Of a stretch of 54,811 nt of DNA, positions 5,475-54,811 are shown one piece after another. How positions within the stretch are numbered: position 1 is the first letter of the stretch; each line of letters begins with the position of its first letter. The notes beneath the pieces are model-generated. The model was not told the DNA's origin. It searched no databases and saw nothing but the letters and a program-made list of their open reading frames with translations. The position numbers and the translations under genes are program-made. Origin of the DNA: a virus; IMG/VR virus record IMGVR_UViG_3300036806_000054, positions 1 to 54,811 of that record; one strand, written 5' to 3'.

Positions 5475-5928
5475 CGGGAATCCGAAAACAATTCGCAATT
5501 CGTTGCCTGAAATCCACGGCCTGCTCTCTTAACTTGCCGATTTTTCCATCTAGCGATCTCCATGCTTCAACAATCGTAAGCGGTTGTAGTTCGGTGACAA
5601 TGCCTACATGCTTCGGGTTGCGATGCACGTAAAGAACGATTAAATCGCTAATCTTGGCGTCGGGCACGGAGTTATTGATCACCGGAATTTCAATGAAGTG
5701 TTTCTTCATCAGCGCGACCATTGCATAACCGTCTGGCTGTTCCGAATAGGCTTGCATTGCCTGCGTAAGTTCGTCCGGCAAGTGTAAGCCTTGTTTCCGG
5801 TATCCCCATGCCGGGGCATGAACACAATCTAAGCCCGTCTCGGGTTCGCGTCCTAAATGCCGATAGGCCGTGCCCCGCAACACTAGTCCGCGCAAATCCG
5901 ACACGAATTGTTGGCGATCAAATTTCAT
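5467..5928 (-). CDS. NlpC/P60-type tail peptidase
   Basis: 153 residues. The motif GLDCVHAPAWG holds the candidate catalytic cysteine and PKHVGIVTEL holds the histidine, in the order and spacing of phage-tail NlpC/P60 endopeptidases. Family members cleave peptidoglycan stem peptides and let the tail tip cross the wall during infection. The start overlaps the DUF2163 stop (ATGA). The order DUF2460, DUF2163, peptidase, hub is the conserved tail-tip order of gene transfer agents and related siphoviruses. Confidence 0.8.
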   Translation of the reverse strand: MKFDRQQFVSDLRGLVLRGTAYRHLGREPETGLDCVHAPAWGYRKQGLHLPDELTQAMQAYSEQPDGYAMVALMKKHFIEIPVINNSVPDAKISDLIVLYVHRNPKHVGIVTELQPLTIVEAWRSLDGKIGKLREQAVDFRQRIANCFRIPDA

Positions 5929-6839
5929 TGCAACGGTAAGCGGGTGAGACTTTCCAACGTTGGCATGTCCGGAAAAAAGTCCGCGTTCAGAATGTTATTA
6001 ACAACAGTCGTGTCGATCTGCGTTCGCGTCTTACAATCACTTGGCCTCTTACGACAACCAATCACCGCTGAATAGGTGTCTCCAACTTCCGGCAAGAAAG
6101 GTGTTGGCGTTCTCAGTCCGAAAATACCGCCCGTTCCCGTGTAGGCATCAACCTTAAATCGATATCCTGAGTTATCACCGGACGTAAATAAAAACTCCCC
6201 ATTTCCAAACGTATCATCTAATTCGGTTCGCGATGAATCGGCAAAGATGTTTTGATCCGTGACTGACGTTAGAGTTCCAGTCACCGTAAAATCAGCAACA
6301 TCTAAAGTACAAAGAGCATCACAAAAAGTTCGGGAACATTCTGCACGTGTGACCTTTCCATAAATCTGGGACAAACAAGCATTGAATCCCATGATCTCTA
6401 CGGAAAGCATCTTGCCCTTTTGTACGAATTGGCCGAGATGTCCCTCGTGGGTTATGTATTGGCCCATTCCTAGAGCTAGATAATTCGTGACGAAGATTGT
6501 TGTTTCCGCATGAGTCCATTTCCCCGCTAACGCATCAGCTTCAGTTATCCCCGCTGCAACAAGAAATAAGTCGGCTTCCATGTTCCCCGCTGCTTGGCCT
6601 TGCTGAACCTCAACATTAGAAGCAGACATTCCTGTAGTCGTTTTGAACGTCACGCCAACGTAACCGGGGACGCTTGTTAAGTCTCGCGACCATGTAGTAA
6701 ATGCCACAACCGATCCATCAATAGGTGAAATGACTTTGGCACACGCGCAGATTGTTAGCGTCGTTCCAGCATAGTGCGCGGGCAAAGATGCCGACGTGTA
6801 AGGCGACTGAACATTCTGTGGGGTTCTAAGTAGTGTCAT
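5925..6839 (-). CDS. DUF2163 / BR0599-type tail-tip protein
   Basis: 304 residues. The N-terminal half matches the DUF2163 pattern (LTICACAKVISPIDGSVVAFT, then ADLFLVAAGITEADALAGKW). The C-terminal half has the BR0599-type cysteines (TRAECSRTFCDALC and GCRKRPSDCKTR), which in the GTA homologue are thought to bind metal or an iron-sulfur cluster. The protein forms the hub of the distal tail. Starts and stops overlap by ATGA on both sides. Confidence 0.85.
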   Translation of the reverse strand: MTLLRTPQNVQSPYTSASLPAHYAGTTLTICACAKVISPIDGSVVAFTTWSRDLTSVPGYVGVTFKTTTGMSASNVEVQQGQAAGNMEADLFLVAAGITEADALAGKWTHAETTIFVTNYLALGMGQYITHEGHLGQFVQKGKMLSVEIMGFNACLSQIYGKVTRAECSRTFCDALCTLDVADFTVTGTLTSVTDQNIFADSSRTELDDTFGNGEFLFTSGDNSGYRFKVDAYTGTGGIFGLRTPTPFLPEVGDTYSAVIGCRKRPSDCKTRTQIDTTVVNNILNADFFPDMPTLESLTRLPLQ

Positions 6840-15039: not shown

Positions 15040-15093
15040 CTATTCAACTTTGGCCTTTTCTCTCTCTGCAATCTCTGCTTGTCGGCGTGCCTT
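15040..15093 (-). other. Candidate +1 frameshift extension of the decoration protein
   Basis: The decoration gene ends TCG-CCC-TAA. A +1 slip on the proline codon CCC would avoid the stop and enter a frame reading KARRQAEIAEREKAKVE, then TAG at 15042-15040, 3 nt before the connector ATG. The tail is highly charged and helical, the segment has no own start, and it fills a gap that is otherwise unused in a tightly packed operon. Shifting at CCC before a stop has been described in structural genes of Listeria phage PSA. Confidence 0.4.
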
Positions 15094-16699
15094 AGGGCGA
15101 GGTTGGAGTAGCAACCGTAAGGTAAATTTCCACGATGCCAGTAGTATTTCCAGAGCCGCCCGCTGCTTGAATGCCCGCATAAATACTAGTAGCGTGTAGA
15201 CATTTTCTTGGTAAACTTCCGGTATAAGGTAGCGGCGCATCAACGATCATAGCCGATGACGCTTGCTCTTGCCCTGCATTATTTGCCGCCCCGCCCCAAT
15301 TGGTTTGCGTAGTGGCATCGTCAAGGTGCTGGTAAACCTCTATAGGATCAAGAAACTCATCTCCCATTGAGTCGTAATAGCCGAGACGGGCACTTGAATC
15401 TTGAAATGCTTCAATCCGATCAATCACCACATCCATCCACCAATCACCCGGTTGAAAGCCGGTGAAATTAGGGCCAATGAGTACCTTTTCAATATCGGCA
15501 TTTGTAATGAAGATATCCACTGCTGCCGGAGTATTCGCTGCTGTAATATCAAACGTTGCTCCAGTTCCAGTCACGCTCCCGCTGGATGCAACACCGTTCG
15601 CGGTCGTGTAACCCGTGCCCGGAGCGGTAATAGAGACTCCAGTGATTATGCCGCCCGGATCAACCGAGTCTACATTCAGCGTAGCATCGCCATTCCCGCC
15701 TGCCACTGTGAGCGCGTCATTAACCTGATAGAGCACGCCGCCAGCGTTGGTGGCTGCGGCAGTTAGATGGCCATCACCTAGCGTGAGATTGTTTGTTCCC
15801 GTGGTAATGAGCGTCGGAATAATTGAATCATCAATCACACAGTCAAGAGCGCCCGGATTGCCACTAAACGGCATGTTACCTGCGCCAACGGAAGGCAGCG
15901 CCTCGAACGCAGCCGTGTAATCATCTGCCACCGCATCAAAGGCAATCGCGGTTGTTTCTTCCCCATTGAAAATATAAGCACAATCGCCACCATCGGCAGT
16001 GAATACGATTGTCTGTTGCTGCACTCCATAGATAGTCCACGGGCCGATCAAGCGAACCGCGCCCGCGGCCGAACCTCCGCCATCCGCTCCCTTATAATTC
16101 TTCCACAGTCCCGCAAAGTCACTTGCCTGTGGAGCTTCTATTTCAGTGTCCGTTGGAAGAACCGCGATGAAGTTCAGATCGGGATCGAAGGTGAGCGTGA
16201 AGTCAGCGCCTTGATCGTCGCTCGCGTAGGCGATATAGACGAAGGCAGAAGCACCCGGAGGCACATAAAGTTTATCGTCTTCTCCTGTGACTAGAGCGTT
16301 GTCTGGGCCAGAGGAAATGAGATCGGTTGACAGTTGTGCAGGAGTGCGATTTGTCCAAACACCTGACTTCCGTTGAATGACATCATCATCAGAAGCCGAA
16401 GCGTCGGCAATCTCTTGAAGGTCAAGATCATAGGCTTGAATGTTTGTTCCTACCGCAGATAGCCCTTGCGTAACAGTCAGAAATCCAGCAGAGGGAATAA
16501 CATCAAACCGTGTGATCGTCGGAAATGGCCCGACCGTCTTGGTTTCGCTTGCAGCTACAGAGGTAGGGGATTGAGGCGCACTCCCAGCACTATCACCCAA
16601 ACGCCAAATAGTTCCAGCAGAGACGCTATCAGCCACAACCGATAACGTCTCGCCGGGGTTTAAGTAGAACGTCCGATGTTCAGGAGCGGTAATGATCAT
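15092..16699 (-). CDS. Capsid decoration / head fibre protein, 535 residues
   Basis: Large Gly/Ala/Thr/Asp-rich beta protein between the coat and the connector, the usual place for decoration or head-fibre proteins. Internal repeats such as GGNGDATLNVDSVDPGG and TGYTTANGVASSGSVTGTG suggest beta-sandwich or beta-helix modules. It ends ...CCC-TAA at 15097-15092; in the +1 frame 17 more codons follow (separate entry). No catalytic motif. Overlaps the preceding gene by ATGA. Confidence 0.7.
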   Translation of the reverse strand: MIITAPEHRTFYLNPGETLSVVADSVSAGTIWRLGDSAGSAPQSPTSVAASETKTVGPFPTITRFDVIPSAGFLTVTQGLSAVGTNIQAYDLDLQEIADASASDDDVIQRKSGVWTNRTPAQLSTDLISSGPDNALVTGEDDKLYVPPGASAFVYIAYASDDQGADFTLTFDPDLNFIAVLPTDTEIEAPQASDFAGLWKNYKGADGGGSAAGAVRLIGPWTIYGVQQQTIVFTADGGDCAYIFNGEETTAIAFDAVADDYTAAFEALPSVGAGNMPFSGNPGALDCVIDDSIIPTLITTGTNNLTLGDGHLTAAATNAGGVLYQVNDALTVAGGNGDATLNVDSVDPGGIITGVSITAPGTGYTTANGVASSGSVTGTGATFDITAANTPAAVDIFITNADIEKVLIGPNFTGFQPGDWWMDVVIDRIEAFQDSSARLGYYDSMGDEFLDPIEVYQHLDDATTQTNWGGAANNAGQEQASSAMIVDAPLPYTGSLPRKCLHATSIYAGIQAAGGSGNTTGIVEIYLTVATPTSP

Positions 16700-22585: not shown

Positions 22586-23911
22586 TCAAAAGGGACGCCC
22601 CGGAGTAAACCGAACTATTGGTTGATTAATTGCCGCCCACCAAGCCAACGCTCTCGCGATAACCGTGTCATCGTGCATTCCCTCCGGTGCTGAATAACCT
22701 GGTCTACCTGTTGCTAGTGAAATCTTTGATTCGTAGGCTACTAACTCGGCCTTGCCAACCGGATCATTAAGCCACTTCGCTTCGTTGCGCTCAAAACATA
22801 ATGCTAAAGATTGAATCAATGGAGGCTTGGTTGCTGCCGTGGTTGTAAATGGATGAATGTTCAACTTCTCTTTGATCAGTGCTTCAATGTTTGGCGAGCC
22901 GATAGAGTTTTCTTCGGCCAGCCCATAACCTACATTCCATCTCTGATAGCCTGCTTTTAATCTGCCGCGCTGAAAATCCCATTGGATTTTATTAAACCGA
23001 TCCAGTTCTAGTTCGACTTTGCAAGTCACACAAAAGCTACAGATCGCCGTAAAGTCTACCTTTTGCGCCCAATCAATTCCTTGAACAATCTTATGGCCCT
23101 TATGAGCCTCGACATCACCTTTCGGAGCGGTCAGGTTTGGTTCGATATTGCGAAACACGGCACCTTCAGATTGTAGAAATTCTGCTAGATATTCTTGCCT
23201 GAAAGTTAGATCAGGTAACTCTAATCTAGCTTTCTCAACTTCACTTGCTAAAATAAACGGGTTGGAAGTAGTCGGAAATCGCCACGAAGCCCAGTCTTCC
23301 ATTAGCGGGTCTTGCCCATAGTCAAACCCTTGCTTAAAGAAATTCATTCCCCGTGGAGTTGAAAGCCAATAGGCATCGCCTTCATAATCAGTCAGTGTTG
23401 GCCTAATTGCTGCTTGCCATGCTTCTTGAAAGTTTGGCACCATTGCAGCTTCGTCAACAATAACCCTCTTATACTTCCTACCTCGCGAACTATCAGGCGA
23501 GTCCAACGACCACATATCAATAGAGCCTTTATTCAGTTCTAATCTATGCTGCTGGACGTTTACATTTGTAATTGCAGGGTGAAGCATCTGCCGCGCATCT
23601 CTCCAAACCTCGGCCAACATTTTATAAGTAGGGGAAAACCAAGCAACAGGCCAACCTTCATTCGCTAAACTAGCAAGCTCAATTCCGATTAAAGTCTTCC
23701 CAAAACGTCGCCCGCAGGCTAAGACGTTAAACCTCTTGGCTTCGTTGACGATTATTTGCTGTGATGGGTGGGGAGTTGGAAGAGTAAGATTAGTTGACTG
23801 CTTCGCTCTCAGCCGATCCCGAAGTATCAGCTTCGCGTCCGGCGGCAAGGATCGCCAATTCCCGCTCAATATCGGAGTCAAGTTGCTTGACATCGATCTG
23901 AATCTTATCAC
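22586..23911 (-). CDS. terL: Terminase large subunit
   Basis: Up to 441 residues. Walker A is CGRRFGKT near residue 70, the walker-B-like segment is KRVIVDEAAMV, and the coupling motif STPRG follows. The nuclease part carries QGIDWAQKVDFTAI and GMHDDTVIARALAWW acidic residues. It powers DNA packaging with the small subunit. Start is uncertain: ATG at 23911 or 23893; both overlap the small-subunit end. No internal defect seen. Confidence 0.9.
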   Translation of the reverse strand: MIRFRSMSSNLTPILSGNWRSLPPDAKLILRDRLRAKQSTNLTLPTPHPSQQIIVNEAKRFNVLACGRRFGKTLIGIELASLANEGWPVAWFSPTYKMLAEVWRDARQMLHPAITNVNVQQHRLELNKGSIDMWSLDSPDSSRGRKYKRVIVDEAAMVPNFQEAWQAAIRPTLTDYEGDAYWLSTPRGMNFFKQGFDYGQDPLMEDWASWRFPTTSNPFILASEVEKARLELPDLTFRQEYLAEFLQSEGAVFRNIEPNLTAPKGDVEAHKGHKIVQGIDWAQKVDFTAICSFCVTCKVELELDRFNKIQWDFQRGRLKAGYQRWNVGYGLAEENSIGSPNIEALIKEKLNIHPFTTTAATKPPLIQSLALCFERNEAKWLNDPVGKAELVAYESKISLATGRPGYSAPEGMHDDTVIARALAWWAAINQPIVRFTPGRPF

Positions 23912-24625: not shown

Positions 24626-24770
24626 TCGGTTTGGAATTAAGAAATCAACGATGTACGGCGGTTGGTGACGGTCATTTGTAACTTTCCGTAACGCAAAATA
24701 GTTCTTGACAAGCTTTTCTGGCTAGAGGCTAAAAAGTGCCGCATTTTCCTGACGTTTCCAAAGGTAACAC

Positions 24771-25202
24771 TTAAGTGCGGAAACTGGCGGTCTTTGTGTT
24801 ATGCCTTTCTATCGGGAGTGAGAGCGCATCAATTTCACCTTGCGGATCGTGGCCATTCACAAGCGCTCTGCCAACTGCCGCTCGCGCGTCCCGTTTTGCC
24901 AGCTCATATCCTTCACGAAACAAGTCTGAGCCAGTAAGGACTGACTCAATGATAGCTGCTATTTCTGCTTGTTGCTCTTTGAAATCGCAGACCGGGCTTG
25001 GCGGACAAATCTTCTCAGCCGCTTCTCTGCATAGGTGTTTGATGTCAGGCGGTTCTGTTCGCAGTTGGCGATCGTAATACTCGTTGATGGCAATCGGAAC
25101 GGTGTTCATCCATTCATGCGTTTTAGTGCTCAGGTTGTCGTAATGCTCAAGCGCTGCGCGCCTCAAATCTTCTATCGGTGTTTGTGCTGCGTGGTCACTC
25201 AT
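24771..25202 (-). CDS. Hypothetical protein, 143 residues
   Basis: Helical protein with a small cysteine pair (KICPPSPVCDF) and a C-terminal acidic-basic pattern. It begins in the ATGA overlap of the membrane protein gene (25199) and precedes the DUF559 gene. Function unknown. Confidence 0.6.
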   Translation of the reverse strand: MSDHAAQTPIEDLRRAALEHYDNLSTKTHEWMNTVPIAINEYYDRQLRTEPPDIKHLCREAAEKICPPSPVCDFKEQQAEIAAIIESVLTGSDLFREGYELAKRDARAAVGRALVNGHDPQGEIDALSLPIERHNTKTASFRT

Positions 25203-25438
25203 TGGGTATCGTGCTCCTCAACTCTTTCGCCGAATTGATTTCTTTGGTTCACTTCCTCAAGTTGCCCGAACCAGACATCTTCCCATCCGCGATAGAACTT
25301 GCGATCATTCTCACGCCATTCTTCAGTCATGCGTGACATGCTGCGCTCAAAAGTCAGCTGAAAAATTGCCCACGTCGCTGCGGCAGTTGCAAGTGTTGCC
25401 CAGATAACCAAAACCACTATCGTAAACTTTTCAGCCAT
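25199..25438 (-). CDS. Small membrane protein
   Basis: 79 residues. One N-terminal membrane segment (FTIVVLVIWATLATAAATWAIF) and a charged C-terminus rich in Glu, Arg and Trp. Coupled to both neighbours. Function unknown. Confidence 0.65.
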   Translation of the reverse strand: MAEKFTIVVLVIWATLATAAATWAIFQLTFERSMSRMTEEWRENDRKFYRGWEDVWFGQLEEVNQRNQFGERVEEHDTQ

Positions 25439-25941
25439 TACCCTTCTCCTAACTCAGCTAGAATTTCATTTGCTGCTCGCGCCTTACAGCCACAGCGAGC
25501 CATGTTTTCTTTTGAGCCCAACCTAGATCGATGATGCCACTCATCTCGTTTTCGCTTCACAACTTCTACTGCTCTATTAGCAGCAGAGCGGAGCGTAACA
25601 ACTTGAGTCAGAAGGTTTTCTTTTCTGCGAATCAGCCCAAGAATGCCATTTACGAGTTCAGTTGTTGAATACAGCGGATCATCATCTTCAGTTGGATCGT
25701 TTAATACCGAAGAAGCGAGGGCACGCTGAATCTCAAGACGCTCTGCTTGCAATCCCTCAATCTCTCCTGCTTGTTCAGTGACAAGAGCATCGAAGCGGCG
25801 AAGATCGTTAAGTAAATCATTAACGGTGAGTTCGTATGCGCGCTCAACATCTCCTGCGCCTTCGATCATTGCTTTAATGTCTACCTGCAGGCGATCCACT
25901 TTCGCTCTTACTTCTGCTCGCCACTGTTGCTTCGAGACCAT
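25438..25941 (-). CDS. Coiled-coil protein, about 167 residues
   Basis: From the ATG at 25941 (MVSKQQW), preferred over a longer frame from 26013 that would cross the small gene at 25949-26083. Coiled coil through AGEIEGLQAERLEIQRAL, then a CGCKARA motif near the end. No family recognised. Confidence 0.6.
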   Translation of the reverse strand: MVSKQQWRAEVRAKVDRLQVDIKAMIEGAGDVERAYELTVNDLLNDLRRFDALVTEQAGEIEGLQAERLEIQRALASSVLNDPTEDDDPLYSTTELVNGILGLIRRKENLLTQVVTLRSAANRAVEVVKRKRDEWHHRSRLGSKENMARCGCKARAANEILAELGEG

Positions 25942-26795: not shown

Positions 26796-27113
26796 TTACC
26801 CCTTACCTTTCACTGATGCTAAAGCCTTGCGAGCGATTTCCACGCTTCCCGGCTCATCGAACGACGAATAACTACCTGTCTGCTCAAGATGCTTGCTTGC
26901 GCCCTCATCGTTGAACGCCGCAATCTGCTTCAGTGCTGATACTGCTTCATCAAAGTTGTTTAGTCGTTCCGCGATCAGTCGCGTTAGTTCTGCCTCTTGC
27001 GCGCCTGAAAACGCTGGAATTGGCATCATGCTTGGATCGCGCCATTTCTCAACGTCATGCCAGTCGGCGATAACTTGTTGCGCGATTTCTTGCGGTGTTG
27101 CTTTATCTGTCAT
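26796..27113 (-). CDS. Small protein, 105 residues
   Basis: Acidic helical protein with motif QEAELTRLIAERLNNFDEAV. Overlaps the next gene by 4 nt (27110-27113). Function unknown. Confidence 0.55.
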   Translation of the reverse strand: MTDKATPQEIAQQVIADWHDVEKWRDPSMMPIPAFSGAQEAELTRLIAERLNNFDEAVSALKQIAAFNDEGASKHLEQTGSYSSFDEPGSVEIARKALASVKGKG

Positions 27114-27346
27114 GATGATTGCCTTTCCTCTTTAGCAATCTGAAACTTCTGATTTGTCGGCGAAAACACGCGGACGCGAGCGCCTATCACGGCAACAATA
27201 ATCACCGCCTTCTTGCGTTGAAATCCAACCATCCACCAAGTATCAGTAACCTGCCAGATTTGCTTCCATCCTGCACGGACAAGCCTCTCGGCAAGCTCTT
27301 CTAATCTCTCAAACTCATCTTTTCGTTTCAGGCGGCTCACTTTCAT
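27110..27346 (-). CDS. Small protein, 78 residues
   Basis: Basic protein with an N-terminal helix (KRKDEFERLEELAERLVRAG) and a beta part containing QRKKAVIIVAVIGARVRVF. No family recognised. Its ATG overlaps the stop of a partial frame upstream. Confidence 0.55.
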   Translation of the reverse strand: MKVSRLKRKDEFERLEELAERLVRAGWKQIWQVTDTWWMVGFQRKKAVIIVAVIGARVRVFSPTNQKFQIAKEERQSS

Positions 27347-27441
27347 TTCACCTCCAAAAGTTTCTTAGCCTTCTCAGTCAACACCGCCCGCCCCGGACTC
27401 ACTTCCTCAATTAATCCTGCATCAATTGAAATCAGTAAAGA
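27343..27441 (-). pseudogene. Small frame without a normal start (possible broken gene)
   Basis: The frame ending in TGA at 27345-27343 reads SIDAGLIEEVSPGRAVLTEK, a plausible C-terminus, but a TAG at its 5' end leaves no ATG; only CTG, ATT, GTG and TTG remain. The frame next to it (27422-27517, start IDGEIGSLLFANP) ends just inside it. One frameshift would join the two into a gene of about 60 codons. It may be a decayed or recoded small gene. Confidence 0.35.
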
Positions 27442-27535
27442 CTATTACTCTTGAGGTAGTAGGTGGCGCGGAGTGGGGGTTTGCAAACAACAGAGAGCCG
27501 ATCTCGCCGTCGATCATCAAGTCATTTCGATCACC

Positions 27536-27739
27536 TTACCTCTTCTTGCTGCCTTTGCCGTTCAACTTTGGCCGATTCCGCGTACTGTCAATAAACGCTT
27601 GGAGCTTGTCGTCCTGCTTCACCGCGCGGCGTCCAATCACCTCGGTTTCGGTTAGGCGTTTATCGGTTAAAGCAATAGATACGGCCTGAGATGTTACGCC
27701 CGCCAACTTCGCCGCTTCTGTTACTGACAAGGGTTTCAT
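27536..27739 (-). CDS. HTH regulator (Cox/Xis/Cro size), 67 residues
   Basis: N-terminal helix-turn-helix: VTEAAKLAGVTSQAVSIALTDKRL, then a basic tail (NGKGSKKR). The size and the site next to a divergent promoter region suggest a Cro/Cox-type switch regulator. It starts with ATG 8 nt after a TACAAT -10 box, so the message may be leaderless. It heads the long leftward operon and could repress both promoters through the dyads at 27751-27869. Confidence 0.75.
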   Translation of the reverse strand: MKPLSVTEAAKLAGVTSQAVSIALTDKRLTETEVIGRRAVKQDDKLQAFIDSTRNRPKLNGKGSKKR

Positions 27740-27747
27740 GATTTCGG

Positions 27748-27777
27748 ATTGTAAGCGCGCTGCTTACCTAAAGTCAA
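27748..27777 (-). promoter_or_regulatory. Leftward promoter PL-like (leaderless)
   Basis: On the minus strand TTGACT (27777-27772), 18 bp, TACAAT (27753-27748), followed after 8 nt by ATG at 27739. The expected transcript start is at or within 2 nt of the ATG, and no Shine-Dalgarno lies upstream. The dyad at 27751-27767 falls in the spacer and -10. Confidence 0.65.
27751..27767. promoter_or_regulatory. Operator-like dyad O1
   Basis: Perfect inverted repeat GTAAGC-N5-GCTTAC within the leftward promoter, between the -35 and -10. A protein bound there would block that promoter. Confidence 0.55.
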
Positions 27778-27796
27778 GAACATTCTCAGCTACGCT

Positions 27797-27813
27797 GTTT
27801 TACCTGCGTAAAC
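27797..27813. promoter_or_regulatory. Operator-like dyad O2
   Basis: GTTTTA-CCTGC-GTAAAC, a 6-5-6 inverted repeat with one mismatch between the two divergent promoters, at spacing like the other two dyads. Confidence 0.4.
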
Positions 27814-27843
27814 GCCAAAGGGTCGCTCCTCTAACATTTTTGC

Positions 27844-27872
27844 TTGACTTCCGTAAGCGATAGGTTTACAGT
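27844..27872 (+). promoter_or_regulatory. Rightward promoter PR-like (leaderless) with dyad O3
   Basis: TTGACT (27844-27849), 17 bp, TACAGT (27867-27872), then a GTG start at 27879, only 6 nt on, with no Shine-Dalgarno. The dyad GTAAGC-N5-GTTTAC (27853-27869, one mismatch from the O1 consensus) overlaps it. Confidence 0.65.
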
Positions 27873-27878
27873 TACATC

Positions 27879-28118
27879 GTGTTTGAGATCGATAAAGACA
27901 TTCCGTGTATCCCGCGCAATACTCGAACCTCGTCGTTTACTATCGAGGTACGCGAGACGCTAATGAAGATGGAGATAGGTGATAGCTTTGCTTACCAAGA
28001 TGCGACACCAAGCATGGCGCTTAATAGAACCATCCGTTCCGTTGCGCGATCCATGAATATCGGTATTACGGTGCGCTCAATAAGTGAAAAGAGATTCAGA
28101 GTATGGAAACTCAGTTAA
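27879..28118 (+). CDS. Small conserved phage protein, 79 residues (start of rightward operon)
   Basis: Begins GTG 6 nt after the -10 box. Sequence [10 protein letters not shown], then [12 protein letters not shown] and [14 protein letters not shown], ending RFRVWKL, is the pattern of a common small phage protein of unknown function with the IDKxxP...GDSF...RVW core. It overlaps the next gene by 16 nt. Confidence 0.7.
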
Positions 28119-29197
28119 TCACATTAGAGCGCGGGATTCCGATTCCGCCACGCTACCCGAAGCGCAAAGCTGCGGGACCGTGTCCTTCCTGTGCTCGAAT
28201 GCCGCGCTCCGGTCTGACATATTGCGATCACCATCTTGCGAAGCAGCGAGAATGGGCACGAGCGCGAATACTCAAAGGGCTGTGCGTCGCTGGTAGTTGT
28301 AAGAATAGTCCGGCTAAGGGGCGCACTCAATGCCGAGAGCATCTGCGCTCAATGGTGATATACAGCCAATCTTTACGTCATCGCAGAACATCAAGACGAC
28401 TTTGCATTCAGTGTGGTAAACGTCCAGCATGGTGGACACTCTTTTGTGTTATCTGTCGAACCGGCAATGACCATCATTACAAGTTCATCCTTCCTTCTGG
28501 TGCGCGCAAAGCGCTCCAAAAGCACCGTCACCATGAAAGAATAGATGCCCGTCGCCAACAAGCGGAAATCGCGGTTGAATGGACGGATAATCCTCGCATA
28601 GCCAAGATTTTCTCAATGCGACACGGACTAGAAGACGGCTCGGATCGCACACTTGAGGAAATCGGTGCGGTATTTTCCGTCACTCGCGAACGAATCCGAC
28701 AGATTGAGGATAAGCATTTAACATGGCTCGCTAGCGAGGGGTTCGACCTTCCGCTATTGCGCCCACCTTTTGAAGCCGCCGAACGCCAACCATTAAAGAC
28801 CAGGACATATCTGGTAAGCGACGGGCAGCGAAAGAAGGCTCATTGCCACGTTCTCGTTAAAGAAGCATTAGAGCAAGGGACTCTCATAAAAGGTTTATGC
28901 GGGACTTGTCAGGCTGTGGACGTAGTTGGTCATCATAACGACTACGACAAGCCTTTAGAGGTAGAGTGGCTATGTCGCAAACACCATATGGATGCCCATC
29001 GAGGGTTCTGGCTAGACAAGTTTGACTCGTCATCACTTTTAGTAAGCGCGTTACGGCGTTTGAAGCCGCGCCAAGAGGACGTATTAGCCGCGACTGGCAT
29101 TAGTTCAACGACGCTTCTAAAGATATTACGTGGTGATACAAGCGTAAAACGTCAGTACGTGTTAGCTGTTGAGAGGTATGCTAACCACAAATCCTGA
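28103..29197 (+). CDS. Mosaic zinc-finger / sigma-70 region 4 / HNH-type / HTH protein
   Basis: 364 residues in five parts. Three short zinc modules: C27, C30, C41, H44; C61, C66, C77, H80; C101, C104, C115, C118. Then residues about 166-206 match sigma-70 region 4.2 ([27 protein letters not shown]). Next a metal site: C266, C269, H277/H278, C291, H294/H295 and H299 ([20 protein letters not shown]). At the C-terminus an XRE-like helix-turn-helix ([18 protein letters not shown]). It is the first regulatory gene after the divergent switch. It may be a transcription factor, repressor or phage sigma-like factor; the sigma match is the most reliable part. Confidence 0.8.
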
Positions 29198-34220: not shown

Positions 34221-34240
34221 AATCAATGGGAATTATATAC

Positions 34241-34270
34241 TTGACTGCTCCGTTTAATTCGTGGTAAATT
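34241..34270 (+). promoter_or_regulatory. Leaderless-type promoter before transposase, TTGACT-18-TAAATT
   Basis: TTGACT (34241-34246), 18 bp, TAAATT (34265-34270), then 6 nt to ATG at 34277; no Shine-Dalgarno upstream. Confidence 0.6.
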
Positions 34271-34276
34271 CTCTCT

Positions 34277-35197
34277 ATGAGTCGAAGCACAATAAGCACC
34301 TTTCAGTTGTTCGAGTTGATTCCCGATCAGGAAACGGCTCGCGTCTATTTGGAGTCTCGCCTGTGGCCTAACGGAGTGATTTGCCCTCAGTGTAAGTCCG
34401 GCGAACGCATCACGACCCGCAAGGATGGTTTCTACGCTTGCAACGCCTGTGACAAGCTGAAATTCACTGTCCGCACCGGAACGATTTTTGAGCGCAGTCA
34501 CGTTCCCTTGAATAAATGGATTTACGCTATGTATCTTCTCGTGACCGCGCGGAAGGGTATCAGCTCGCTTCAGTTGGCGAAGGAGATAGGCGTAACCCAA
34601 AAGTCCGCATGGTTCATGCTTCAGCGACTCCGAGAGGCTTGCGGCTCGGATATGGACAAGCTGAGGGGCATTGTCGAAGTTGACGAAACCTTTGTGGGCG
34701 GTCTGGAATACGCGAAGCACGAAAACAAAAAACTGAAAGAAGGACGCGGTTCTGTTGGCAAGACGCCGGTGCTCGGAATGCGTGAGCGCGGCGGGCGCAC
34801 GAAAGCCTTCCCGATTGCCGCAAACGATCTGCCAACGATTCAGGCGGCGATCCATGACAGCGTAGAGGTCGGCTCTACTCTCTACAGCGACCAACACGGC
34901 GCATATTCCGGCATCGGCGGTCTTTTCTTCCATCACGCGAGCGTCAACCACTCTGACGGCGAATGGACGCGGGGTAACATCTCCACTAACTCGATTGAAT
35001 CCGTTTGGGCCGTTCTGAAACGCGGACTTCATGGCGTCTATCACCACGCCAGCAGAAAGCATCTTCATCGTTACGTTGACGAGTTCACTTTCCGGCTGAA
35101 TGCGGGCCGCGTGGCGCGTCATACTCTCTTGCGGCTGGATTCCTTCATCGCCGCCGTCGCCAACAAACGAATCACTTACGCGGAGTTGACTGCATGA
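34277..35197 (+). CDS. IS1595-family (ISXO2-like) transposase
   Basis: 306 residues. Intact N-terminus with zinc site (CPQC, CNAC), then the helix-turn-helix (SLQLAKEIGVTQKSAWFML), the catalytic DDE region starting GIVEVDETFVGG, YSDQHGAYS and STNSIESVW. GC-richer codons than its neighbours. Followed by a small basic gene and a methyltransferase with tight overlaps, so the unit may travel together. I cannot see terminal inverted repeats. Confidence 0.85.
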   Translation: MSRSTISTFQLFELIPDQETARVYLESRLWPNGVICPQCKSGERITTRKDGFYACNACDKLKFTVRTGTIFERSHVPLNKWIYAMYLLVTARKGISSLQLAKEIGVTQKSAWFMLQRLREACGSDMDKLRGIVEVDETFVGGLEYAKHENKKLKEGRGSVGKTPVLGMRERGGRTKAFPIAANDLPTIQAAIHDSVEVGSTLYSDQHGAYSGIGGLFFHHASVNHSDGEWTRGNISTNSIESVWAVLKRGLHGVYHHASRKHLHRYVDEFTFRLNAGRVARHTLLRLDSFIAAVANKRITYAELTA

Positions 35198-35307
35198 AGA
35201 AGCCAAGGGTTCCTGCGGTCTTAGATCGCATAACAGACGTGGTTGTGAACTTTCGCCCGAAGGTGAAGCGGAAGAAAACCAAGAAGCGAAAGCGAGCAAA
35301 GCGGTAG
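35194..35307 (+). CDS. Small basic protein of the transposase unit, 37 residues
   Basis: ATGA overlap with the transposase stop. Reads MKKPRVPAVLDRITDVVV, then a basic end (VKRKKTKKRKRAKR). Similar short frames follow other IS1595-type transposases, so this is probably its accessory. Confidence 0.55.
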   Translation: MKKPRVPAVLDRITDVVVNFRPKVKRKKTKKRKRAKR

Positions 35308-35308
35308 G

Positions 35309-35962
35309 ATGCAGCCATATCACGAGGAAAATGGAATCACGATCTACCACGGCGATTGTCGGGACGTTCTCAACTCGCTTCCGTATGCCGCCGCCGTCGT
35401 TACCGATCCGCCTTACAACGTCGGAAAAGACTACGGAACTCACAATGACAGCATGAGCGATCTTGATTATGCAAAGTGGGTTGAAACCGTGACGAGCAAG
35501 TGTATCGTGTCGGCCGGTAAACAGTTCTGGGTTGCGCCGCGCTATAAACTGGAACTCTGGCTTCACCACTTGCCGGGTGCGCATCTGATTGTCATTCCGC
35601 GCGGCGCAACGGGCCCGTTTCGGCAAGGATGGAGTGACCAATTCGAGATCGCGCTTTCGATTGGCAAGCCTGCCGAATGCGTTCCCGATCTGTGGTCCGG
35701 AATTCGATTGAAAGGCGAAGGCTACTTTTTCCGCGAAGAAACTTTCGGGCATCCGGGCTATACGCCCTATCCGATCATGCGCAGAGCGGTTGAATTGCTG
35801 TCTGAGCCGGGAGAGTTGATTGTAGAGCCGTTCTGCGGCACTGGAACCACTCTGAGAGCCGCGAAGGACACAGGACGCAAGGCCATCGGCATCGAAATCG
35901 AAGAGCGATACTGCGAGATCGCCGCCAAGCGTTTGAGTCAAGAGGTTTTTCAATTTGCCTAA
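35309..35962 (+). CDS. DNA methyltransferase (DPPY class, beta order)
   Basis: 217 residues. DPPYNVGKDYG near residue 35 is the catalytic motif, and FCGTGTTLRAA near residue 180 is the AdoMet motif, so the order is catalytic first, AdoMet last (beta class, N6-adenine or N4-cytosine). It directly follows the transposase unit. Probably shields the phage DNA from host restriction or marks an epigenetic switch. Confidence 0.8.
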   Translation: MQPYHEENGITIYHGDCRDVLNSLPYAAAVVTDPPYNVGKDYGTHNDSMSDLDYAKWVETVTSKCIVSAGKQFWVAPRYKLELWLHHLPGAHLIVIPRGATGPFRQGWSDQFEIALSIGKPAECVPDLWSGIRLKGEGYFFREETFGHPGYTPYPIMRRAVELLSEPGELIVEPFCGTGTTLRAAKDTGRKAIGIEIEERYCEIAAKRLSQEVFQFA

Positions 35963-35988
35963 CATTTATGAATCAGAGCACTAAAGTG

Positions 35989-48782: not shown

Positions 48783-49306
48783 TTCTTAATCATTAACACT
48801 GCCCCAGCACCTAACACAAGTCCCAGAGCCGCGGCGTACTTAGTCAGATTCTTCCATTTTGCTGCTCGCTTCGTTTGCCTTGCAGCCTCAGTTACCGCGT
48901 CTGTCTTAGCTTTCTCGGATAATGCCAGAGCTTGATTCAACGCGATAATCTGAGTATCTAATGCCTTGATTGTGTCGAGTCTGATCTGGTCACGGTCTTT
49001 AAGGGACTGGATTAGCTCGTCATCTTTCTTTGACTGAGACTCAAGAGTTGTTATGTATGCCTGAGCAGCCCTTGATTCGGTTTCTAGCTGGTCGAGCTTG
49101 TCACTCGCCTGAGCCAACAAATCTCTAACTTGACTATCGGATAATGAGGTTGTGCTTTGCGGCGATTGCCCGAATGTCCGCATCGGAAACAGGATTATTA
49201 GAACGCAAGACAACAGGACTGCGACTAGCGACGTATACAACTCTCTTTTGCTCTGTTTGAGTTTTGAGGTCAGCGACTTCAGATTGTAGTTGCTCAATTT
49301 GTGCAT
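48779..49306 (-). CDS. Lysis-block membrane coiled-coil protein (spanin-like)
   Basis: About 175 residues from the ATG at 49306; a longer frame to 49378 is mostly a shadow of the upstream gene. Hydrophobic segment LVAVLLSCVLIILF (the LLSC could be a lipobox), then coiled coil through DQLETESRAAQAYITTLES and a C-terminal membrane segment AAALGLVLGAGAVLMIKK. It overlaps the 49523 gene out of frame, resembling nested Rz/Rz1 pairs. Confidence 0.55.
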   Translation of the reverse strand: MHKLSNYNLKSLTSKLKQSKRELYTSLVAVLLSCVLIILFPMRTFGQSPQSTTSLSDSQVRDLLAQASDKLDQLETESRAAQAYITTLESQSKKDDELIQSLKDRDQIRLDTIKALDTQIIALNQALALSEKAKTDAVTEAARQTKRAAKWKNLTKYAAALGLVLGAGAVLMIKK

Positions 49307-49523
49307 CCTTAGCCTTCGCTTGATCCTTCGCCGCGTTCGCTTGCGATTCGGCAACAGCCGCTTGAGTTTTCGCAGCATCTATCTGCTTTTGATATTCAGC
49401 TTGTCGCTGTTGAAATGCAGACTCTTTGTAGTTGTTTATCCCGGCACCGACTGCGATGACTACAACTACCAGCAGTCCGAAGCCGATCAGAATAGGAATT
49501 AAATGAGCCTTGAACCATGCCAT
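49134..49523 (-). CDS. Inner-membrane spanin-like protein
   Basis: 129 residues with an AGGAA Shine-Dalgarno. N-terminal membrane segment (LIPILIGFGLLVVVVIAVGAG) then a long coiled coil (AAKTQAAVAESQANAAKDQA), the i-spanin pattern. Lies directly after the endolysin gene (8 nt). Confidence 0.65.
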   Translation of the reverse strand: MAWFKAHLIPILIGFGLLVVVVIAVGAGINNYKESAFQQRQAEYQKQIDAAKTQAAVAESQANAAKDQAKAKDAQIEQLQSEVADLKTQTEQKRVVYVASRSPVVLRSNNPVSDADIRAIAAKHNLIIR

Positions 49524-49531
49524 GCGTTTCC

Positions 49532-50407
49532 TCAGCCAAACCAGATATTATTCTTATTTGGATCGGCAGCAACATCAGCCGCCTTCAGAGTCTTGGCTAA
49601 TGCCCGCTTGTGACGTTCGTTAATCAGATAAACCGCGCTCAGGATAATCGCGATGATGATTAGCGCCCACGCCCACGGCGGAATCGACATAAAGACTTTC
49701 CCGATAGTCGCCAACACACCGCCAAGTCCGGCAGGTATTGAAATGTCCTTTGCCTGATCCAGTAAACTCGGCTTGCTTGGAGTAACTACGGTCGCGGTGT
49801 CCGGGGTAATTTCGGCAGGCGCGTCCGGCTTCTTATCCGTGGCCGTCTCAACATCAACTCCACCTTGAGGGGTAACGCTGACCTTAGTTGTCACCGCGTC
49901 GGCATCTGGAACCCCTAGCAAGTCAGAAAAGACCTTCTGCCGCGCCAGAACGTCCGCAGAATAGTCTTTCCCGGTTGTTCCCCTGTCAGGGTCGTCGTGG
50001 TTAATAAAGTTGCGGTACGCTGGCCCAGAACCGCAGTTGTATCCGGCTACTGCGCATCTCAGTAATGTTCCGTTAAGAAGAACATGTCTACCAGCTAACT
50101 CTCTTACTTCGTTCTGTTTCTCAGCCAGAACTTCACAGCACTTGTTTACTGCTTTGCCAACATCTTTCCAGTCACCTGACTTAACAAATTCAGGATAGGA
50201 TCGTATGTCGATCTGCCACCAGCTAAATCCATGATTATTGTCGCCGCCAACTCGTTGATACTTTGGATCGAATTCAGTCTCTCGCGATCCTATGGCGATA
50301 ATGAGTGACGGCTCGAATCCGTGAGTTTGCGCCGCTGACTCAATCACAGGAAGATGAGACTTAATCGAATTGAACTGCTTGGTTAGCTGTGCACGAGTTG
50401 CGTTCAT
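49532..50407 (-). CDS. Endolysin, goose-type lysozyme-like, C-terminal membrane anchor
   Basis: 291 residues. HGFEPSLIIAIGSRETEFDP then NNHGFSWWQIDIRSYPEFV and AGYNCGSGPAYRNF fit G-type lysozyme/SLT fold with catalytic Glu in SRETE. A Pro/Thr/Asp-rich linker leads to a C-terminal membrane segment (WAWALIIIAIILSAVYL). The tail anchor is unusual for endolysins and could hold it inactive at the membrane until holin opens. Confidence 0.8.
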   Translation of the reverse strand: MNATRAQLTKQFNSIKSHLPVIESAAQTHGFEPSLIIAIGSRETEFDPKYQRVGGDNNHGFSWWQIDIRSYPEFVKSGDWKDVGKAVNKCCEVLAEKQNEVRELAGRHVLLNGTLLRCAVAGYNCGSGPAYRNFINHDDPDRGTTGKDYSADVLARQKVFSDLLGVPDADAVTTKVSVTPQGGVDVETATDKKPDAPAEITPDTATVVTPSKPSLLDQAKDISIPAGLGGVLATIGKVFMSIPPWAWALIIIAIILSAVYLINERHKRALAKTLKAADVAADPNKNNIWFG

Positions 50408-50471: not shown

Positions 50472-50699
50472 TCAACATACCCAAGCAAGTCCAAATTGGT
50501 AAATCTGAATCAGAATGATGAGTAGCAGAATCAACAAAACAATTACTATCGTCCAGTTAACGTAAGGCTGATAAGGTGGCGGTAGAACGTGCGAGCAGAT
50601 CAACCAAAGAATAAGAAGGAACAATGCAACGATTAACGCGCCCAAAAGAAGATGGGGTAGGCATCCCAAACCCAAACCAGCAAGTAGAAGTGTTGTCAT
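50472..50699 (-). CDS. Holin candidate, 75 residues
   Basis: ATG at 50699 with GGAGG Shine-Dalgarno (the ATG at 50723 has none). Two or three hydrophobic segments (LLLAGLGLGCLPHLLLGALI, VALFLLILWLICS, WTIVIVLLILLLIILIQIY). Placed before the endolysin. Size and topology fit a class II holin. Confidence 0.65.
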   Translation of the reverse strand: MTTLLLAGLGLGCLPHLLLGALIVALFLLILWLICSHVLPPPYQPYVNWTIVIVLLILLLIILIQIYQFGLAWVC

Positions 50700-51893: not shown

Positions 51894-52310
51894 TCATTTA
51901 TCCTTTCGCTGTTGGTTCTGCAACTGCATCGCCGTCAGCATTCCTTCGAGCTTCGACATCTTGTTACTATCAGATTGAGCTAACGCCCAGACTGAACCAA
52001 AAGAATTTGTAAGTGAATTGATTTGCTGAGTGAGCAGAGTTGTTTGTTGCTGGATCGCATCGATGCGCTTGTCCTGGTTCGCCCTCTCAGTGCCCTGCTT
52101 CTCAATTAGAGCCTTGATTTCTTTTAGCTGCGCCGTGGTGCTGTCTACGTTCGCCTGAAGCTGGGGAAGCTCTTTGACTTGATTTAACGCGGCCTCAGTC
52201 CTCCCGGCAGAGCGGCCATAAGAAATCAATCCAACAACGATAGTGAGAATTAGCGCTCCATGAGTAGCAATCGCCAGCCAACGCGGCGTGGTCGTTGGTT
52301 GTTTTGCCAT
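51894..52310 (-). CDS. Membrane coiled-coil protein, about 138 residues
   Basis: From ATG at 52310 (MAKQPTTTPR); a longer frame to 52424 exists with less support. One membrane segment (LAIATHGALILTIVVGLISY) then coiled coil (VKELPQLQANVDSTTAQLKE, IDAIQQQTTLLTQQINSL). May be part of the lysis or tail-associated block. Confidence 0.6.
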   Translation of the reverse strand: MAKQPTTTPRWLAIATHGALILTIVVGLISYGRSAGRTEAALNQVKELPQLQANVDSTTAQLKEIKALIEKQGTERANQDKRIDAIQQQTTLLTQQINSLTNSFGSVWALAQSDSNKMSKLEGMLTAMQLQNQQRKDK

Positions 52311-52522: not shown

Positions 52523-53056
52523 TCAAAGCGGATACTTCAATCGCAGGCTCCAATAAATCAGACTGGCCGCGTCGCGTTCATCTCTCGTTAGCGCCTCATC
52601 CTCTTTTCGTTCTGCCATGACTCGTAGAAGTTGCCGGATTTCTCGATCATCTCTCAACCGATCATTCTTGAACTTGTCTAAGAGTGCGTCGGCTACTCGA
52701 TATTCTGGTTCGGGGTGATGAACATCGTCTACTCTGAGCTTCGCTCGCTCGTGCGTCATCTCGATAAACATATTGACACGACCAACAAGACGAAACAATT
52801 CTTCAGCTAATGCGGCTCTTGCCTCTGTTGCCCTCTGCTCTACATTGGCGATTCTTTCATTGAGTTGGCCTAATAAAACTCGCAGACTCTCGCGCAAACT
52901 CTCCGACGATTCGCTACACTGTTTCTTGACTGCGGCAACCTGTGACTCGGTTGCTCCCGCCTCCCCGGCTATCCGGGTTTTCCGCGCATCGCGGACTACC
53001 ATGTACCCGGCCAGCAATAGGTTTAACCCCAGCGAGATATACGCGATCCATGTCAT
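52523..53056 (-). CDS. Membrane-anchored coiled-coil protein, 177 residues
   Basis: N-terminal membrane segment (TWIAYISLGLNLLLAGYMVV), then a long helix (SESLRESLRVLLGQLNERIA, TEARAALAEELFRL). The start overlaps the PAS gene (53053) so the pair is coupled. Could be a membrane partner of the PAS protein. Confidence 0.6.
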   Translation of the reverse strand: MTWIAYISLGLNLLLAGYMVVRDARKTRIAGEAGATESQVAAVKKQCSESSESLRESLRVLLGQLNERIANVEQRATEARAALAEELFRLVGRVNMFIEMTHERAKLRVDDVHHPEPEYRVADALLDKFKNDRLRDDREIRQLLRVMAERKEDEALTRDERDAASLIYWSLRLKYPL

Positions 53057-53466
53057 TCACTGTCCACAAACGGCCATGCCAACACGGCAACAAAAAATCC
53101 TTCATCAGAAGACAGGGGAAGCAATTCAATTTGTACTCGAAAGAGCGACCCGTTTTTGCGCTGAAACATTAATTGAGGATTTGCCCCGCCCATCGCACGC
53201 GCACGAGGGAAGTCTAAAAATCTCTGTCGATGTTCCAAGTGTTTTTCTTTTAGATTATTCGGCACAAGAATCTCGGGCATCTGGCCGTATAGGTCACTCG
53301 CGTTATATCCCGAAACATCGATCAACTTTTGGTTTACAAGACAAATCTTACTTTCTTCTGCCTTGCGCTGATCGGATTCATGGGTCAATAAACATAGAAC
53401 GCCCATGCCGTTAACCAGCTTCGTTAGAATTTCTAAACTTGGGGGATCAGGTGCCATCTCAGACAT
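53053..53466 (-). CDS. Free-standing PAS domain protein, 137 residues
   Basis: Residues 40-130 follow the PAS pattern: CLVNQKLIDVSGYNASDLYG, QMPEILVPNNLKEKHLEHR, MGGANPQLMFQRKNGSLFRV and ELLPLSSDEGFFVAVLAWPF. PAS domains sense small ligands, redox, light or voltage in bacterial signal proteins and are rare in phages. No output domain. A -10 box (TATAAC) lies 7 nt before the ATG, so this too may be leaderless. Next gene is a membrane coiled-coil protein. Confidence 0.75.
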   Translation of the reverse strand: MSEMAPDPPSLEILTKLVNGMGVLCLLTHESDQRKAEESKICLVNQKLIDVSGYNASDLYGQMPEILVPNNLKEKHLEHRQRFLDFPRARAMGGANPQLMFQRKNGSLFRVQIELLPLSSDEGFFVAVLAWPFVDSE

Positions 53467-53528: not shown

Positions 53529-54811
53529 TTAAGGCTGTGGCCCGATTCTAACCATCCAGAATTCAGGGCTATAATTCCCTGCCGCATTTACATTCAACGC
53601 ACCACCAGAGTCTTGGTACACTACCAATTCAACATAATCATTAGCAGCCAAACTATAGAGAGCACCTATGGAGAGTGCTGTTACGTTGCCGCCTCCCGCT
53701 AATGGAGGGCTTTCAATCAGATCAATGAAAATTGTTCCGTTTAATCTAATTCCAATCAGGCGAATATTTCCACCACCTGCCGCAAAAGTGGCCGAGCCGC
53801 CGATTTCATATAGACCTGCCGTGGTTGCGGTCAATCGAGAGGTATTCGATGAAGTTGAATGAATTGTGTCGTTATCCCAGCGCTCAGAATCCAGCGTAAG
53901 AGCCGTATATGTAACATCAGCTATTGAAAGGTTGCCGCTATTGTAAGCCCTCGCTGAATTGCCGCTAGCGCCCAGACTCTCAATCTTATCTCTGACTGCG
54001 TTTTTAGTTGGAAGACCTAGATTTCCATTCCACGTCGTTGCGTCATAAGCATCATCAGTTGCCAGAGCAGCCTTACCTGAATATGGCGCGAGGATCAGAT
54101 CACCACTCGCGTTAGTTTCGATTAGTGATGAGTGTCCCGCCTCGTCTCGTATCTCTAACGCGGAAGTAAAGAGTTGAAGATGAGGCAAGGCGTAACTGAT
54201 GTTATTTGTAGACTTGAATCCATAGGTCGCGCCTAACCCAAAGAACTTATCTTGACCAAGTTGAATGATTGAAGGATATTCCCCGGCTGACGGGCTTGTA
54301 TTGATCCAGTTGATCCAACTATTACCTCCGGCGCTCGTATTCGTGATCACAACGGAAACTGGGCCAGCAAGATAGAGGGCGATGCGATCACTAAGATTAG
54401 AGTTAAAACTAGAATGGCTAATTCCGACCGTGCCCGTGTTGACGTGATAGGCCGAGACATGAACGAACGAAGCCAAAGCGCTTCCTGCGTCGGTGAAGCA
54501 ATGCTCCAAAGTCATCGAAGTGTAGACAGCGTTATAGCGATGTGAAAGATCGGCAGTCAGGAAAAACGCATAGCCTGCCGCGCTTGTTGGCCCTTCCAGA
54601 TCGTAGCAATGAACGAGGAAGGCTGATGCGTTGCGTATCAATCCGCTGTTTGCGGAGTTGGAATCACCGCCTGAATAGAACTGGCATCCATTGAAATAAA
54701 TATTTCCGGTCTGGTTTCCATGCAGATCAACGCCCCACGCTTTACCTGAAAGATTGCAGTTATTGAAATGTTGCTCCGATGTTGTATGCGCGCCGCTTGA
54801 GGCTGATCTAA
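53529..54811 (-). CDS. Tail fibre protein, C-terminal part with C1q-like head domain
   Basis: C-terminal half of the fibre gene that begins at 1706; the frame is open at the window's right edge. The middle has beta-helix-like sequence rich in Asn and Ser. The last 140 or so residues, from the RAYNSGN motif through DSERWDNDTIHS, GLYEIGG and NDYVELVVYQ to the end, match the pattern of C1q/TNF-like jelly-roll domains that cap many phage fibres and bind receptors as trimers. It is the last gene of the leftward structural block and ends in TAA 62 nt before the PAS gene at 53466. Confidence 0.85.
   Translation of the reverse strand, partial: RSASSGAHTTSEQHFNNCNLSGKAWGVDLHGNQTGNIYFNGCQFYSGGDSNSANSGLIRNASAFLVHCYDLEGPTSAAGYAFFLTADLSHRYNAVYTSMTLEHCFTDAGSALASFVHVSAYHVNTGTVGISHSSFNSNLSDRIALYLAGPVSVVITNTSAGGNSWINWINTSPSAGEYPSIIQLGQDKFFGLGATYGFKSTNNISYALPHLQLFTSALEIRDEAGHSSLIETNASGDLILAPYSGKAALATDDAYDATTWNGNLGLPTKNAVRDKIESLGASGNSARAYNSGNLSIADVTYTALTLDSERWDNDTIHSTSSNTSRLTATTAGLYEIGGSATFAAGGGNIRLIGIRLNGTIFIDLIESPPLAGGGNVTALSIGALYSLAANDYVELVVYQDSGGALNVNAAGNYSPEFWMVRIGPQP
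54685..54811. repeat. Direct terminal repeat, right copy (assembly overlap)
   Basis: Second copy of the 127-base sequence found at 1-127. The tail-fibre frame runs through it without interruption, so joining the ends restores one gene. Confidence 0.95.

Follow-up and report, generated by a model that had tools for sequence, protein, structure and literature searches.

A stand-alone heme-type PAS gene next to a small membrane gene in seven viral lineages, a possible accessory of phage lysis

The timing of lysis is a central decision for a phage, and superinfection (T4 lysis inhibition) is a known input to it, together with holin dose, membrane potential and quorum signals. The locus described here raises the question of whether a sensor protein of the PAS type, encoded next to a membrane protein, might provide another. 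The window, i.e., the whole stretch of DNA that was analysed (54,811 nucleotides, IMG/VR record IMGVR_UViG_3300036806_000054), has a 127-base direct terminal repeat (positions 1-127 and 54685-54811) and is therefore a closed and probably complete genome with 54,684 unique bases. PHROG matches to terminase, portal, major head, tape measure and tail proteins are those of a tailed phage of the siphovirus type, and replication and nuclease genes were found in other parts of the genome. A preliminary description of this DNA had pointed to a PAS domain, to an overlapping next gene encoding a membrane coiled coil, and to the possibility that the pair senses the energy or redox state of the host and controls lysis. 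The PAS gene, which starts 62 bases past the stop of a tail-spike-like gene, and its surroundings on that side are as follows:

53529 to 54811, minus strand: C-terminal part of the tail-spike-like gene, directly upstream of the PAS gene; it runs across the joined genome ends into 1-1706
53053 to 53466, minus strand: stand-alone PAS protein P0001 (137 aa, ATG start), assigned by TIGR00229, phmmer, profile, model and Foldseek
53239 to 53241, minus strand: codon of His76, the position at which FixL, DosP and FG214 have their heme-ligating His in the alignment
53191 to 53193, minus strand: codon of Met92, placed at +16 like Met172 of FG214, which can be the sixth heme ligand in place of His175

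The open reading frame 53466..53053 (minus strand) contains both motifs quoted in the preliminary description. Its product passes the NCBIfam family TIGR00229 (sensory_box; 34 bits, cut-off 22.9, E 2.8e-8) and stays below the cut-off for Pfam PAS_9 (22.8 vs. 27, E 1e-4). By phmmer it matched the heme-PAS domain of FG214 (10JX, E 1.7e-6) and also FixL and DosP, and a profile of seven phage copies found the same three (10JX E 3e-27, FixL 3.5e-21, DosP 1.7e-20) with other PAS proteins far behind. An AlphaFold model based on a 19-row alignment (pLDDT 81.6, pTM 0.74), which superseded a poor one made without alignment (pLDDT 45), has the full order of a PAS domain, i.e., N-cap helix, strands A and B, helices C to F and strands G to I, with an insertion between strands A and B. 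Foldseek placed 10JX at the top of the PDB matches of this model, and DosP and FixL were among the heme-PAS entries that came next; LOV proteins match by fold too, as they do for any PAS. Pfam and NCBIfam revealed no output domain in P0001, as had been claimed (137 aa, PAS only), and no structural-protein match was found in Pfam, PHROG or NCBIfam. Family matches and predicted model together show P0001 to be a complete, soluble, stand-alone PAS protein of the heme-PAS subfamily, and the term “near-complete” used before was too cautious. Structure prediction, which had been proposed as a check, returned a PAS and not a different fold, and the homologues turned out to be signal sensors rather than the tail or capsid proteins that had been considered as the alternative.

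The best PDB match of P0001, both by sequence and by fold, is FG214, a heme-PAS one-component regulator of Fimbriimonas ginsengisoli (10JX/10JY, PMC13060918) in which His156 is a heme ligand and the sixth ligand is His175 or Met172. We compared His and Met residues of P0001 with the heme ligands described in PMC10468136 and PMC13060918. His76 lies inside the predicted helix 70-85, and the position of the heme-ligating His is helix F; at +3, +16 and +19 from His76 P0001 has His79, Met92 and Ala95. The proximal His, the His at +3 and the alternative ligand Met at +16 are thus common to both proteins, and the distal His175 of FG214 is missing. Unlike P0001, FG214 also carries a DNA-binding output domain, whereas the candidate output of P0001 is a separate membrane protein. 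FixL and DosP belong to the same PAS subfamily and have the same heme-ligating His on helix F. They differ in having a kinase or phosphodiesterase domain, where P0001 stands alone, and in their distal residues: Met95 and Arg97 of DosP (+18 and +20) correspond to Gly94 and Asn96, and the O2-associated distal Arg of FixL and DosP is missing, with Asn96 or Pro97 aligned there. With these distal residues missing, P0001 is unlikely to be an O2 sensor of the FixL kind. On the aligned residues, its ligand could be a His/Met heme or possibly another molecule. The heme-type His is found in all eight phage copies described below and the Met at +16 in seven, and the other copies are just 24-35% identical to the window protein. 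The earlier idea of redox or energy sensing gains support from the membership in the heme-PAS subfamily and from these residues, with heme binding as the inferred step. Short LOV proteins (e.g., PpSB1-LOV), a bacterial flavin-binding family, are likewise stand-alone PAS folds without an output domain and match P0001 by fold; its sequence, however, is much closer to the heme-PAS group.

The gene that follows is the second member of the pair:

53053 to 53056, minus strand: ATGA overlap between the PAS gene stop and the membrane gene start, read from the sequence
52523 to 53056, minus strand: membrane partner P0002 (177 aa), with an N-terminal TM segment (residues 3-21) and a helical, probably coiled-coil, cytoplasmic part
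52529 to 52810, minus strand: C-terminal domain of P0002, common to the L020 partner and, via L020, to the L022 partner

The overlap of the next gene (53056..52523, ATGA) is as first described. About the “membrane coiled coil”, the membrane segment stands (residues 3-21 are hydrophobic and have positive charge on the C-side, from which the helical tail is predicted to face the cytoplasm), and the coiled coil is moderately supported, since the heptad periodicity at residues 62-103 was equalled by 16 of 300 shuffled sequences. P0002 is a small protein with a TM segment, as holins and antiholins are, and gave no significant match to holin or antiholin families in Pfam, PHROG or NCBIfam.

With P0001 or P0002 alone as the query, IMG/VR yielded no relatives; these were reached only by alignment-based scans (a 12-row alignment was too diverse for scanning, and so was alignment A9). 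Seven further stand-alone PAS genes of 128-177 aa were identified in IMG/VR. They were chosen by ORF length only, the next gene being read afterwards, and multidomain or partial sensors (L023, L025, L031-L035) were left out of the count. L026 is the same phage as L027 and L039 the same as L038, and the related L021 and L024 were counted once, so that with the window there are seven lineages. In all eight copies a small TM gene comes directly next, at distances from a 4-base overlap to a 9-base gap. The seven further copies, with the cell-wall hydrolase genes found within 3 kb, are:

L020: TM gene 9 bases on, with a C-terminal domain homologous to that of P0002
L021: ATGA overlap; partner with a short helix and C-terminal TM; Amidase_2 hydrolase
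L024: ATGA overlap; partner with a short helix and C-terminal TM; M15 endolysin
L022: PAS with its own N-terminal TM; the TM gene directly after it is a relative of the L020 partner
L026: ATGA overlap; partner with TM and long helix; glycoside-hydrolase endolysin
L030: ATGA overlap; TM gene; SLT hydrolase, which may be a virion enzyme
L039: 7-base gap; partner with TM and helix

Seven of the partners pass the hydropathy threshold and that of L039 lies just under it (1.56 vs. 1.6). TM segments occur in 47 of 333 ORFs (14%) of 70-200 aa from these eight genomes, and by our arithmetic, with mechanical gene calling, the chance of a TM partner in at least six of the seven lineages would be ca. 5e-5, a figure to be read with the caveat that small membrane genes abound in lysis regions. 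For this same reason the mere fact that the two genes adjoin says little about whether their products touch. The partners fall into at least three sequence classes. That of L020 is related to P0002 (BLASTP E 2e-9 in a single comparison, shuffle z ca. 12) and that of L022 to L020 (shuffle z ca. 10; BLASTP gave no alignment), and the direct comparison of P0002 with the L022 partner was not significant, so that the link runs via L020. The L026 and L039 partners gave a z of 4.8, which may reflect coiled-coil composition. By their charges, most partners would have their large soluble part on the cytoplasmic side (ambiguous for L022 and L039). The L022 PAS gene (5770-6288), with its own TM segment, is a natural membrane-anchored version of the pair.

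L021 and L024, the only copies close enough for the test, gave dN 0.28 and dS 1.10 for the PAS gene and dN 0.21 and dS 0.97 for the partner; these values point to purifying selection on both. In a tree of PAS domains the viral rows cluster (3 changes, against a mean of 6.9 for shuffled labels), with the window protein as the longest branch, and the tree is compatible with one or several origins.

In bacteria the situation is different. When 84,980 species genomes were scanned once with the alignment of phage copies, eight relatives were confirmed, all of them multidomain proteins of 381-1607 aa; these bacterial relatives include sensor kinases and cyclic-di-GMP enzymes, and annotated plasmid matches were large sensors as well. 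The statement that PAS proteins are uncommon in phages is right for this type: tblastn of P0001 against 50,697 deposited phage records gave no match, and with P0001, L020, L021, L024, L026 and a canonical bacterial member as queries no stand-alone FixL-type PAS appeared in these records, the matches being partial or very weak and located in giant phages. Short phage PAS proteins in BFVD (from uncultured Caudovirales and Cellulophaga phages) showed 7-18% identity. Larger PAS proteins also occur on viral contigs, e.g., a PAS-GGDEF (diguanylate cyclase-like) protein on a 169-kb contig (L031, 5926-6843) and two proteins with response regulator and PAS, without a kinase domain (L032, 5536-6286; L033, 5575-6522). 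Sensing by a phage PAS protein has a precedent in VqmA of vibriophage VP882, a PAS-domain DNA-binding transcription factor of quorum sensing (PMC8284805), which senses the state around the host; unlike VqmA, P0001 has no DNA-binding domain and its neighbour is a membrane protein.

The coupling of PAS and membrane gene that had been claimed for this genome is thus a repeated feature, present in seven viral lineages and often with genes for cell-wall hydrolases nearby; such genes lie within 3 kb in five of the eight copies (L021, L024, L026, L030 and the window). Downstream of the pair the window contains:

51894 to 52307, minus strand: another small membrane gene, with marked heptad periodicity, its start put at an internal ATG; a neighbour in the lysis region
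50472 to 50699, minus strand: small hydrophobic protein with two TM segments, holin-like by shape only
49532 to 50407, minus strand: SLT lysozyme-like protein with a C-terminal TM, an endolysin candidate (Pfam SLT E 0.0025, below cut-off)
49134 to 49523, minus strand: Rz-like spanin candidate (phrog_1152, E 2.6e-6, with a possible coiled-coil bias)

The two-TM protein has a weak likeness to one in L020 (z 3.2). No recognised endolysin was found near the PAS gene in L020 and L039, and the L022 PAS gene is at the contig end and, like that of the window, follows tail-like genes. None of the partners matched known holin, antiholin or spanin families significantly, and a consensus promoter scan of the PAS-gene region of the window gave no match. 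All copies have a terminase in their records except L020, whose contig has a 123-base terminal repeat. Some of the terminase matches cross in-frame stops, at 27065-28429 of G007 and 1338-2702 of G008 (TGA and TAG, L026/L027 phage) and at 24697-25890 of G004 (TGA, L021 phage), which may represent insertion, frameshift or recoding.

Two relatives of the window by portal (56% and 37% identity) have parts of its head and tail genes. Neither contains a PAS match in the comparison with the window, and the gene is therefore not essential to this type of phage. With one of them, G001, the window is 72% identical in the head and 56% in the portal protein, and the terminase (22586-23911) and the head-closure-like protein (15092-16699) match over their first 36 and 72 residues only, a pattern that suggests mosaic exchange within genes. 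A 580-aa ORF of the window (34223-35965) has no PHROG match, and the opposite strand has long ORFs of 306 and 217 aa there.

The explanation that we consider best, with a probability of ca. 0.42, is a heme- or ligand-binding PAS sensor that acts on its membrane partner as a lysis accessory. Adjacency and the ATGA overlap suggest that both proteins would be expressed together. P0001 would bind heme via His76, perhaps with Met92 as the second ligand, or some other small ligand, and, by analogy with FixL, DosP and FG214, the redox or gas state of the ligand would alter its surface or oligomeric state. It might then bind or release the cytoplasmic part of the partner, and the pair, as an accessory of the lysis machinery, would advance or delay membrane permeabilisation as host respiration or redox changes. 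The proposed logic is that of T4, where the small cytoplasmic antiholin RIII targets the cytoplasmic portion of a lysis membrane protein, holin T (PMC8385771). We found no sequence relation to the T4 proteins, and the partner is not a recognised holin. Control of lysis by the pair is plausible; like the binding of heme and the contact with the partner, it is inferred.

It is also conceivable, if somewhat unlikely, that the PAS domain is a ligand-free scaffold, a mere dimerisation clamp, and that the membrane protein does the work as a holin, antiholin or spanin accessory. The partial retention of the distal heme residues of FixL, DosP and FG214 would suit such a role, as would the strand A-B insertion and the long branch of P0001; a scaffold does not, however, explain why the heme-type His is kept in every phage copy at such low identities. 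The kinship with bacterial sensor kinases and cyclic-di-GMP enzymes argues for another possibility, in which P0001 would pair with PAS histidine kinases or diguanylate cyclases of the host in mixed dimers and rewire host signalling, the partner only localising it to the membrane. PAS domains commonly dimerise and one without output fits a dominant-negative role, but this predicts neither a constant membrane partner of varying sequence class nor the closeness to hydrolases, and we regard it as unlikely.

Small membrane proteins also serve superinfection exclusion, and an accessory PAS gene missing in relatives would agree with an exclusion or other membrane-acting pair (a moron) unrelated to lysis. 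Exclusion, however, is not known to require a sensor, and the late-gene position, near hydrolases in several phages, makes this quite improbable. The tail-spike gene 62 bases upstream might suggest that P0001 belongs to the virion or tail, or else that it is a functionless piece of a captured host gene. We consider this very improbable, given the lack of a structural-protein match, the complete domain with clean boundaries in seven lineages and the dN and dS of the sole testable pair.

Phage-borne PAS sensing and small lysis accessory proteins are already known kinds, and in the open-licence full-text literature we found no description of a PAS protein within a lysis cassette. Tentatively, and with some doubt, the heme-PAS and membrane pair could represent a recurrent kind of phage module that has not been described before: a stand-alone heme-PAS protein would sense redox or gas state and directly control a membrane protein of lysis, so that the moment of host bursting follows respiratory or redox state. 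As the same gene pair also occurs in six further virus lineages, it seems possible that some viruses monitor the chemistry of their host when they burst it. If true, a heme-type sensor with a membrane protein would be a new input to lysis that links phage release to oxygen, nitric oxide or redox state. The module is compact, recurs and could be tested in a laboratory host.
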